DNA of 34,098 nucleotides, from assembly GCA_007695095.1 (NCBI GenBank), contig REEL01000136.1, positions 1-34,098 of the forward strand, written 5' to 3'. This document shows, in pieces, positions 31,945 to 34,066 of the stretch. The notes below the pieces were generated by a model. It saw nothing but the letters and a program-made list of their open reading frames with translations. It was not told the origin of the DNA and did not search any database. How positions within the stretch are numbered: position 1 is the first letter of the stretch; each line of letters begins with the position of its first letter. A program made the translations under genes and the position numbers. This DNA comes from Chitinophagaceae bacterium (lineage in GTDB: Bacteria > Bacteroidota > Bacteroidia > Chitinophagales > REEL01).

Positions 31945-32096
31945 CTAATGAGAATTTCGAATTATATTTTTTTAGTATCTGTTTTACTCGTCTTTCGAGT
32001 GGATTTTAATAAAAAATATAGCCTCACTTTATGCGTCTAAAGCCGGAAGAAGAATGGAAAAATTATGATGGAAAATCTGCTTCGCAAGTCTTTCTT

Positions 32097-32121
32097 GTCC
32101 GGTAGCGGGGGCGCTACGGAC
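32097..32121. repeat. GC-rich hairpin with GGGG loop
   Basis: GTCC-G-GTAGCG pairs with CGCTACGGAC (10 bp, one bulged G) around GGGG. It ends 6 nt before the left copy of the 108-bp direct repeat. No T-tract follows on either strand. Confidence 0.6.
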
Positions 32122-32127
32122 AGCTGG

Positions 32128-32236
32128 GAATGTAATTTTATTCTAATAAATTAAAATCGTTAGAAAACTTCTTCAACTCACTTTAAACCTCAATTTAAAT
32201 CGAAAATATATCCTTTTTCTCTTTTATCTTTTTTCT
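32128..32236. repeat. 108-bp direct repeat, left copy
   Basis: Identical to 33959-34066 apart from one extra T near position 32138; the last 96 bp (32141-32236) are an exact match. It is AT-rich and non-coding. The right boundary of the match falls inside the loop of the hairpin at 32225-32250. Confidence 0.95.
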
Positions 32237-32250
32237 TGATAAAAAAGATA
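32225..32250. repeat. Perfect 10-bp hairpin at the edge of the direct repeat
   Basis: TATCTTTTTT and AAAAAAGATA flank the 6-nt loop CTTGAT. Only the 5' arm is shared with the right repeat copy, which diverges in the loop. Confidence 0.8.
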
Positions 32251-32256
32251 GAAAAA

Positions 32257-32435
32257 AATCAAGGGCTGTGAGACCTTGTCCTAATAAAAACTACGAAAAC
32301 CTACACTATCACGACAAAACTCGCTACGCTATTCGCTGAAAATTTTCCAAATTTTCAGATAGCTGTGCTTCAGACAGTTGTCGTGATCGCGTTCCGGTTT
32401 TCTTGTTTTATTGGACAATCCCTCAAGGCCCGATT
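32257..32435. repeat. Imperfect palindrome of about 180 bp
   Basis: Nested complementary blocks in order: AATC/GATT at the ends, TTGTCC (32276-32281) with GGACAA (32413-32418), AATAAAA (32283-32289) with TTTTATT (32406-32412), GAAAACC (32295-32301) with GGTTTTC (32396-32402), ATCACGACAA (32308-32317) with TTGTCGTGAT (32378-32387), GCTAT (32328-32332) with ATAGC (32359-32363), and CTGAAAATTT (32336-32345) with AAATTTTCAG (32349-32358) around the loop TCC. One long hairpin or cruciform is possible. Confidence 0.85.
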
Positions 32436-32517
32436 AACGGCACATAAGGCTTTTATATCGATATAGATGATAAACTCTTTGCAGAAAGAACATAATGAAA
32501 CTCCCTCACAGAAGGAA

Positions 32518-32647
32518 TGCGGCCTTTATTCCGGACTTGGGGGACCCGCTGCTTGAATCTTGCGTGAAAAATTTTACTGTCTGACGCCAGGAGTTTAAAA
32601 TTTTTAGCAAGTGAAAGCACAGCAGGCCAAGGAGGAATTCAGACGCG
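32518..32647. repeat. Second imperfect palindrome of about 130 bp
   Basis: Complementary blocks: ATTCC (32528-32532) with GGAAT (32634-32638), CTTGG (32536-32540) with CCAAG (32627-32631), GCTG (32548-32551) with CAGC (32620-32623), TTGC (32560-32563) with GCAA (32607-32610), and AAAAATTTTA (32567-32576) with TAAAATTTTT (32596-32605). The apical loop is 19 nt. Confidence 0.75.
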
Positions 32648-32686
32648 ATTTTTTTTTAATAATGAAAAATAAATTTCAAACTATCG

Positions 32687-32719
32687 TTTCACAGGCGGAT
32701 GTCTGCGATAGAGTGAATT
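32687..32719 (+). repeat. REP-like short repeat, copy 1
   Basis: TTCAC and GTGAA flank a core GGCGGATGTCTGCGATAG. Its CGATAG also pairs with CTATCG at 32681-32686. It is related to the copies at 33040-33088 (minus) and 33240-33274. Confidence 0.65.
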
Positions 32720-32742
32720 GCCCTACTCCTTAAATATACTCC

Positions 32743-32763
32743 TGCGTAGTTACAAACTACGCA
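32743..32763. terminator. 8-bp perfect hairpin downstream of the small two-TM gene
   Basis: TGCGTAGT and ACTACGCA flank TACAA, 17 nt past the stop codon at 32781 on the minus strand. There is no T-tract, so it may only stabilise the 3' end of the mRNA. Confidence 0.4.
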
Positions 32764-32780
32764 TAGCCCAGACTGTATCA

Positions 32781-33008
32781 TTAAGGTGAAAAAGGTGCAA
32801 TAACAGGATGCCCTTGCTCTACAACTTCAAAAATTTCACGGAGTAATATAACTATGCCAAGTAAAATCAATGAAATGCTAAACAAATATCCTCTAAATTC
32901 ACCAGCATTGTAATCTGGCTTAGGTAATGGGTTTTTATACAAGAAATATAAATTCCAAAATCCAAAAAGAATACAAGCCACTGCTATTATAAACAACAAC
33001 AATTTCAT
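32781..33008 (-). CDS. Small two-helix membrane protein, unknown function
   Basis: 75 residues with two hydrophobic segments (about 3-22 and 41-58) separated by a short loop with KNPLPKPDYNAGEFRGY, and a hydrophilic C terminus ending APFSP. ATG start, no recognised family. It is flanked on both sides by REP-like repeats and lies within the segment bounded by the 108-bp direct repeats. The codon pattern and membrane topology look real, but there is no independent support. Confidence 0.6.
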   Translation of the reverse strand: MKLLLFIIAVACILFGFWNLYFLYKNPLPKPDYNAGEFRGYLFSISLILLGIVILLREIFEVVEQGHPVIAPFSP

Positions 33009-33039
33009 AACAAATCTATTCTGAATTTAATATTTCTTC

Positions 33040-33077
33040 CCATCTATCGCAAGCGTCCCCATCTATCGCAAGCGTCC
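33040..33077 (-). repeat. 19-bp tandem duplication of a REP-like half-site, copy 2
   Basis: The 19-bp unit CCATCTATCGCAAGCGTCC occurs twice back to back (33040-33058 and 33059-33077). The second unit continues into GCTTGTGATACGG, completing a REP-like sequence that on the minus strand reads TCACAAGCGGACGCTTGCG. Confidence 0.85.
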
Positions 33078-33239
33078 GCTTGTGATACGGCTGATACAAC
33101 TTCTTTGTATAAAAATATTCCATCTCATCAATTAACATGTAAATCTAATCCTTTTAAATTAATTGTTCAAAAAACTACTACTACAATTCAATTTCAATAT
33201 TTCATTATCTACATGCATAATCACCGGAACTAAATACTT

Positions 33240-33274
33240 GTCACAGACGGACGCCTGCGGTATAGTGAGAATTT
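33240..33274 (+). repeat. REP-like short repeat, copy 3
   Basis: GTCAC at 33240-33244 and GTGAG near 33265-33269 flank GACGGACGCCTGCGGTATA. It is the same family as copies 1 and 2. Confidence 0.65.
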
Positions 33275-33299: not shown

Positions 33300-33647
33300 T
33301 TATTTAATTTTTTTAAATTCAGAATCTGATGTAAAAAGAGGAATTTGATTTAATAATGCAGATGATGCGATGATTGCATCAGGAATCTTGATTTTGTATT
33401 TCTTTCTTAGTAAAATTGCTTTACTTTCAATTTCATCTGTATATCCGTGTTTTTTATGAAAGGATAATAATTCTTTGATAACAGATTCAGCTTTTTCATC
33501 AACATGTGGATTGCCCAGAAGTTCTATTTTTGTAATAAATGAAAAATGAATGTCCTTATTTAATAGGGCTTCAGCAGCATAATTATTGCCTTCAAGTAAA
33601 TAAATGAACATATTTGTATCGACAAATATACTTCCTTTACCATTCAT
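33300..33647 (-). CDS. PIN-domain toxin (VapC type)
   Basis: 115 residues. The four PIN-domain acidic positions are present: D10 in FVDTN, E42 in TKIELLG, D90 in IPDAIIA and D108 in TSDSEF. Toxins of this type are metal-dependent ribonucleases. The protein stops only seven residues after the last acidic residue, somewhat shorter than many VapC proteins, yet all catalytic residues are kept. Its start overlaps the end of the upstream antitoxin-like frame by 11 nt, the usual translational coupling of toxin-antitoxin pairs. Just downstream lies a REP-like repeat. I infer an active or recently active TA module. Confidence 0.85.
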   Translation of the reverse strand: MNGKGSIFVDTNMFIYLLEGNNYAAEALLNKDIHFSFITKIELLGNPHVDEKAESVIKELLSFHKKHGYTDEIESKAILLRKKYKIKIPDAIIASSALLNQIPLFTSDSEFKKIK

Positions 33648-33831
33648 CCCTGAGCTTTTTTTGGTACTTTAATCCATCTCCAAAAACACCTTTCAACTTA
33701 CCTAAATATTTATGTGGATTGAATGTCCTTTTTGCATTAGATTTTTGCATATTACGTAAAACCGTTGCAATTTTTTCATTCATTTCCTGTATAGTATCTG
33801 ACTTTTTAATTGTAACCGACATTAGATTCAT
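33637..33831 (-). CDS. Putative antitoxin partner of the PIN toxin
   Basis: 64 residues, basic, upstream of and overlapping the PIN-toxin gene by 11 nt. The N-terminal part (1-30, SVTIKKSDTIQEMNEKIATVL) could form a small dimerisation or DNA-binding element. The C-terminal part (KRTFNPHKYLGKLKGVFGDGL, then YQKKLRDEW) looks like a toxin-neutralising segment. I do not recognise a named DNA-binding family. A second ATG three codons in (33822) is an equally good start. No promoter matching TANNTTTG was seen directly upstream. Confidence 0.7.
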   Translation of the reverse strand: MNLMSVTIKKSDTIQEMNEKIATVLRNMQKSNAKRTFNPHKYLGKLKGVFGDGLKYQKKLRDEW

Positions 33832-33958: not shown

Positions 33959-34066
33959 GAATGTAATTATTTCTAATAAATTAAAATCGTTAGAAAACTT
34001 CTTCAACTCACTTTAAACCTCAATTTAAATCGAAAATATATCCTTTTTCTCTTTTATCTTTTTTCT
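33959..34066. repeat. 108-bp direct repeat, right copy
   Basis: Same orientation as the copy at 32128-32236, with one single-base indel. After 34066 it diverges into ACTATATAACAAATC and lacks the hairpin and palindromes that follow the left copy. The two copies enclose the small membrane protein and the PIN toxin-antitoxin pair. Confidence 0.95.

Follow-up and report, generated by a model that had tools for sequence, protein, structure and literature searches.

The question raised by this locus is what to make of a large nested palindrome at positions 32257-32435 of the window, which is the whole stretch of 34,098 nucleotides that was analysed and corresponds to contig C136 in a draft genome of 3.49 Mb and 186 contigs, whose relatives place it with the Bacteroidota. 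The initial annotation, made from the letters only, had offered three readings of it, namely a non-autonomous mobile element, a structured non-coding RNA, or a DNA cruciform acting as a protein target. We found that the palindrome is one copy of a repeated non-coding DNA element of Bacteroidota and of some other bacteria. Its shape, a small pseudoknot and then a long hairpin, is conserved while its letters change, and this suggests mobile DNA that is recognised by its fold. The element is apparently undescribed, as searches of the open-access literature found no description of the family and none of six of its motif strings in full text. It would belong to a kind already known, the palindromic, non-autonomous bacterial repeats.

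The palindrome and its parts in the window

RNA folding of both strands, the check that the initial annotation had proposed, gave a strong fold on each. Over 32240-32450 the free energy was -64 kcal/mol on the + strand (z -6.98, reached by 0 of 200 shuffles) and -68.2 kcal/mol on the - strand (z -4.62), and folding of 32257-32435 with DNA parameters gave -35.9 kcal/mol (z -6.92). The large nested palindrome is thus real. Its limits were nearly right, as the ends of the long hairpin proper, P1 in Table 1, differ from them by no more than about 6 nt. The nested order of pairing stood as well, whereas the count of six blocks gave way to 51 pairs in 8 nested helices in a consensus of eight copies. 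The perfect 10-bp stem with its 3-nt loop at the tip was found exactly as claimed, and it is helix 8 of the consensus, in which two pairs have changed on both sides.

Table 1. Features of the element and of its surroundings in the window (coordinates of the window)
Feature	Position	Strand	Evidence or remark
Small GTAG-type REP hairpin	32097-32122	+	Also found on both sides of the RAYT gene at G000:C101
Left extension, part of the "108-bp repeat"	32128-32224	+	Second copy at 33959-34066, 98%
S1 hairpin of the 5' module	32225-32250	+	TATCTTTTTT / AAAAAAGATA stem, CTTGAT loop; read in the sequence
S2 5' strand CTTGAT, within the S1 loop	32235-32240	+	Can pair with 32258-32263
S2 3' strand ATCAAG, at the foot of P1	32258-32263	+	S2 covariation across modules
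P1, long nested hairpin	32263-32431	+	Folding, consensus pairs, double-changed cells
P1 tip, perfect 10-bp stem with 3-nt loop	32336-32358	+	CTGAAAATTT at 32336-32345, TCC, AAATTTTCAG at 32349-32358
Right-hand module (P1 3' arm, spacer and P2)	32389-32659	+	Recurs with another left neighbour
Spacer between the inverted hairpins	32432-32518	+	Aligned copies
P2, second family member, inverse, tail to tail with P1	32519-32647	-	Folded copies
Truncated copy of the left extension, stops inside S1	33959-34066	+	98% to the copy beside P1

The hairpin S1 stands just before P1, and the letters in its loop can pair with those at the foot of P1, an arrangement predicted to have the geometry of an H-type pseudoknot. 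That this neighbouring hairpin and the palindrome might be one unit had been suggested before, and S1 does belong with P1, since a second genome (G048, below) conserves the two together. The 108-bp repeat reported on the left is also real, 32141-32236 and 33971-34066 being identical over 96 nt, and partial copies of the left extension precede the hairpin in C80, C160, C119, C24 and C177. Copies of the right-hand module begin at the same base in C128, C176, C65, C148, C76, C15 and C83 and at contig edges, and since this 271-bp stretch recurs with a different left neighbour the elements are mosaics. The small GTAG-type hairpin further to the left is probably outside the element, and no terminal inverted repeats were found around the window element.

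On the - strand, folded copies of P2 show the signature of the family, with GCTAAA opposite TTTTTCACGC, an apical AAACTC...GTCAGACAG and a GGGT-ACCCC bulge; intact copies of P2 keep a leading hairpin of their own (TAACCCTTTTTTTTAAAAAAAAGGGTTA), and nine T residues follow P2 on the + strand at 32649-32657. From these letters, P1 and P2 may be read as a tail-to-tail dimer of roughly 430 bp. The S2 pairing is not recognisable in P2 and the claim of a pseudoknot is therefore limited to P1. The initial annotation had recognised the palindrome and had missed the pseudoknot geometry, the inverted member, the mosaic make-up and the phylum-wide family.

Copies in other genomes and the conserved fold

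Besides the window copy, 40 places in the host genome, many of which are the ends of contigs, match parts of 32120-32800. The first relative, found by DNA search, was a genome of the same order and another family (G048), in which a covariance model of the core detected five copies. All five have the leading hairpin with other paired letters (GTACTTTTTT/AAAAAAGTAC), and S2 is altered there in concert to CTTGAA/TTCAAG. When these five sequences and three from another genome were aligned, the 51 pairs of the consensus held in 99.5% of cells, and 9 pairs had both sides changed in a total of 27 cells, which are not independent events because two genomes contributed all the sequences, one of them five and the other three; the wider comparison given below is thus weightier. 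Not one of 500 shuffles equalled the alignment in paired percentage, in double-changed cells or in covariation score, and when the structures were slid by 1-3 columns the double-changed pairs numbered 0 or 1. Chance, which had been considered an unlikely explanation, is ruled out by the shuffles together with the independent homologous copies; the palindrome was to count as an isolated oddity if related genomes had neither copies nor compensatory changes and it was not transcribed, and related genomes do have copies with compensatory changes.

An exact scan of 84,980 species with the 3' arm of P1 found no match. The 5' module (TTTTTTCTTGATNAAAAAGNNGCAAAAAATCAAG) occurred in 39 stretches in 84,980 species, all of them Bacteroidota except for one MAG labelled Nomurabacteria, which is probably mis-binned. 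Of 199 genomes from the order, 42 matched a looser pattern of the module, with as many as 68 copies in G128 and 29 in G164, and none matched the reversed pattern; in 296 genomes sampled from the phylum the looser pattern matched 18, some of them probably by chance because the reversed pattern gave five single matches there. The module pattern was absent from 2.9 million viral contigs, and the element was intergenic in 63 of 67 cases.

Among 55 distinct modules, 512 of the 550 S1 cells were Watson-Crick pairs, with 11 G-T, 11 A-C and 16 other combinations. The S2 position that the search pattern had left free (after CTTGA and before TCAAG) was Watson-Crick in 51 of the 55, with three pair types. 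A search by geometry only returned divergent S2 pairs, CTTGACC/GGTCAAG at L100 and CCAAAGC/GCTTTGG at L112; its composition-shuffled control gave 1 match, and many of its non-canonical matches were unrelated hairpins. The letters of the long hairpin that follows the module differ wholesale from genome to genome. Folding with z < -5, on rough values from 10 mono-shuffles each, was found behind 23 of 67 distinct modules as against 0 of 59 flanks, and many copies are therefore degraded or without a strong hairpin. The internal-loop motif CTAAA opposite TTCTTAACG was present in 16 of 68 clusters compared to 0.96 in shuffles, and the apical motif AACTCGC..GCTCAGACA in 14 of 68 compared to 0; the loop and tip motifs are thus far above shuffles and yet confined to about one quarter of the clusters. 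Six modules, at L100, L112, L114, L120 and L130 (the pair at L130 being counted from both sides), had a tail-to-tail partner at 275-301 nt, and these loci span several genera. The same partner search gave no head-to-head pairs, its shuffled control gave no pairs at all, and two further partner matches, at L087 and L180, look like chance.

Outside the Bacteroidota, plasmids were searched with a related module. The search led to Ilyobacter polytropus (Fusobacteriota), where a wider stretch occurs at 18 places, and this stretch as a query returned two Pseudoalteromonas records. In both genera an S1 hairpin and an S2 of 4 bp (TGCC/GGCA) accompany a long nested hairpin with z -5.5 in Ilyobacter and -9.0 in Pseudoalteromonas (mono-shuffles), and the Ilyobacter hairpin also has a CCTAAAAT / ATTTCTTAACGG loop. 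Ilyobacter and Pseudoalteromonas thus show the same architecture, a likeness of fold that need not mean common descent.

Proposed mobility, the level of the fold and rival readings

The non-autonomous mobile element was the best supported of the three readings first offered, as the copies are dispersed, multi-copy, non-coding, nearly always intergenic and present in several genomes. Mobility is deduced because near-identical copies occupy unrelated sites. We tentatively favour the view, to which we give nearly even weight, that P1 makes up the left-hand half of a mobile repeat, non-coding and non-autonomous, which is defined by its fold and moved by an enzyme acting in trans. Each half would comprise a T-rich/A-rich hairpin whose loop can pair downstream, followed by a long nested hairpin whose letters may vary freely as long as the pairing persists, and two halves could sit tail to tail. 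The structure would form in single-stranded DNA, for example behind the replication fork, where a recombinase or transposase that is strand-specific and provided in trans would read the shape, and by this recognition the element would spread. When flanks were compared by eye, no target duplication recurred from copy to copy; the one possible duplication, of 9 bp, was at L179. An all-against-all comparison of open frames at 39 named loci gave no recurring neighbour gene; all that recurred were the element's own ghost frames and the neighbours that related Mucilaginibacter loci have in common.

Whether the fold is kept in DNA or in RNA can be judged from the pairs that depart from Watson-Crick. 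An RNA under selection would tolerate G-U above A-C on the transcribed strand. The long hairpins of 12 groups, with pairs selected by a strand-symmetric rule, gave 2,026 cells, of which 1,954 were Watson-Crick, 15 G-T, 23 A-C and 34 other, and 29 pairs were doubly changed. There was no excess of G-U over A-C on either strand in these hairpins (15 and 23), in S1 (11 and 11) or in an earlier count of departures (10 G-T and 15 A-C). The fold is probably kept in DNA and not in RNA because G-T departures are no commoner than A-C departures, although their numbers are modest. A search of Rfam 15 gave no match at or above the gathering score. Of the initial readings, then, DNA structure is favoured over RNA, and the structured non-coding RNA was left with neither positive support, nor an Rfam match, nor a wobble bias. 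The element does resemble Rfam structured RNAs in having covarying helices and pseudoknot geometry, and differs from them in just these two respects, the Rfam match and a G-U preference.

It is nevertheless conceivable, though we consider it rather unlikely, that the element acts as RNA, whether as a terminator, an insulator or another structured RNA, the chief functional rival being a terminator that works in both directions. CTTGATTTTTTG comes after the long hairpin on the - strand and the nine T residues come after P2 on the + strand, so that the dimer would stop transcription both ways. In addition, right-hand neighbour genes point at the element in 37 cases and away from it in 21, and in 8 of 9 groups it is the - strand that gives the more stable consensus fold. 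Against this, besides the missing wobble asymmetry, many copies are sited upstream of genes or in the gap between divergent ones, a terminator requires neither 170 nt nor a pseudoknot, and a terminator scan, which permits short stems only, does not report these hairpins.

It is also unlikely, in our judgement, that the element is an ordinary double-stranded MITE, or the passenger of one, moved by a DDE transposase, its long hairpin being two old inverted repeats that template switching between the arms has kept alike. Bacterial MITEs, such as BrickBuilt of Porphyromonas (PMC4596501) and other small mobile repeats that have been reviewed (PMC2229807), are likewise non-autonomous, non-coding, dispersed and found in mosaics, and the element is indeed non-coding, dispersed and multi-copy. 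Moreover, the core lies inside larger repeats, in G164 inside two different ones with ends of their own (a terminal inverted repeat GGGTGCGGCTCC in one) while in G128 a single one, whose inverted ends are GAGTGTGTCAAG, encloses it, and this speaks for a MITE; the core may therefore hitch-hike instead of moving alone, and hitch-hiking on other elements is a live alternative. Correction of quasi-palindromes is also able to mimic compensatory change. However, the mismatched internal loops (CTAAA/TTCTTAACG and AACTCGC..GCTCAGACA) persist uncorrected over great distances, and S2 covaries even though it lies outside the long palindrome. Neither a terminal inverted repeat nor a target duplication was found for the window element. 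Unlike in MITEs, its stems are conserved as pairs and not as sequence, and one core is found inside different MITEs.

A tie to RAYT transposases, as in repeats of the REP/REPIN kind, is very unlikely. REP, REPIN and BIME sequences with their RAYTs are likewise short, non-coding, intergenic and multi-copy, form hairpins and sometimes inverted pairs, and are thought to act as single-stranded DNA; the element shares the high copy number, the intergenic position and the inverted pairs, and its inverted dimers resemble REPINs. RAYTs are present in the host genome and, across the order, in 163 of 199 genomes, and one Mucilaginibacter copy (L116) is about 1 kb from a RAYT. The element may also overlap with RAYT subclass 2.6 of Bacteroidetes, which is reported to have "atypical secondary structures" (PMC6006769), yet these are described as weaker hairpins. 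In seven genomes that carry the element, not one of 30 RAYT loci has a copy in its flanks, two element-bearing genomes that are at least 94% complete (G004 and G025) gave no RAYT match, nor did two less complete ones (G122 and G154), and the small GTAG hairpin on either side of the RAYT at C101 is a different one. The hairpins of the element are also 130-200 nt long and those of REP 20-40, and the element has an additional module that would form the pseudoknot, is not located beside RAYT genes and lacks the conserved GT[AG]G foot, the foot of the module being GATA, GTAC, GAAG, GAAC or GTAG and the hairpin about 170 nt. Finally, an attC-like integron recombination site, which the element recalls as a long imperfect palindrome that folds as single-stranded DNA with conserved unpaired positions near a toxin-antitoxin-like pair, was rejected as extremely improbable, as the draft genome (1-2% missing) has no integron integrase (TIGR02249) over the cut-off but only XerC/D-level scores, the R'' RYYYAAC and R' GTTRRRY boxes were absent at the hairpin foot when read in the sequence, and the copies are scattered without cassette arrays.

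A wider form of the favoured reading, that the element belongs to a new class of mobile DNA in several phyla whose identity is not its sequence but a single-stranded fold, made of long hairpins and of a DNA pseudoknot at one end or at both, and which is moved by an as yet unknown single-strand recombinase, is possible but doubtful. Should the DNA-level reading prove true, the element would clearly exemplify natural covariation under selection in DNA, and it would indicate that an enzyme able to read a DNA pseudoknot is still to be discovered. Sequence-based repeat finders see the copies as unrelated, so that a family recognisable by its fold alone goes uncounted in Bacteroidota genomes. The element also breaks assemblies, many contigs of the host genome ending inside it, and where its T-rich module falls in an open frame it gives rise to "ghost" hypothetical proteins of the ...FFLDKKVAKNQ... 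type.

Ghost frames, neighbouring repeats and genes

At L110, L114, L116 and other loci of Mucilaginibacter, Dysgonomonas and Pedobacter, open frames that run through the 5' module yield recurring ghost peptides, of which YYFFLDKKVAKNQ is an example, and these are likely to be mis-annotated as hypothetical proteins. In G164 (L168-L184) there are two MITE-like families with different ends that share one pseudoknot-hairpin core; the ends are GGGTGCGGCTCC in one and TAGGCGATTTG...CCACCCCTA in the other, and at L173 the module is joined directly to another hairpin.

Roughly half of the loci with repeats in this genome also contain a match, at 87-100%, to a 24-mer of the window (AATGGAAAAATTATGATGGAAAAT, 32053-32076), often beside truncated elements, and the 24-mer is a further mosaic component. 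Separate small hairpin repeats of the TATCGCAAGCGTCCGCTTGTGATA type are located at 32685-32712, 33043-33058, 33062-33089 and 33240-33268, one of them within a 19-bp tandem duplication at 33039-33076. The frame at 33300-33647 on the - strand encodes a PIN-domain protein (PF01850, E 6.7e-16), and a small frame upstream of it at 33643-33822, also on the - strand, has no Pfam match; from their sequences they are likely a VapC-type toxin and a candidate antitoxin, and the pair sits between the two 108-bp repeats. Elsewhere in the host genome, at G000:C149:19673-20441 (L041), a tyrosine recombinase frame runs off the contig end, because of which the gene may itself be repeated.

Two RAYT loci have hairpins or repeats of their own. 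At G000:C101:3084-3691 (L067) the RAYT gene (NF047646) has GTAG-type REP hairpins, GTCCGTAGCG...CGCTACGGAC, on both sides. At the RAYT locus of G012 (L193), CGTTGTTTGTGTCCTCACAAACAACG occurs twice beside the RAYT gene, at 2119 and 2418, 299 bp apart, and this pair is a candidate "atypical" REP of the kind ascribed to the RAYTs of Bacteroidota.
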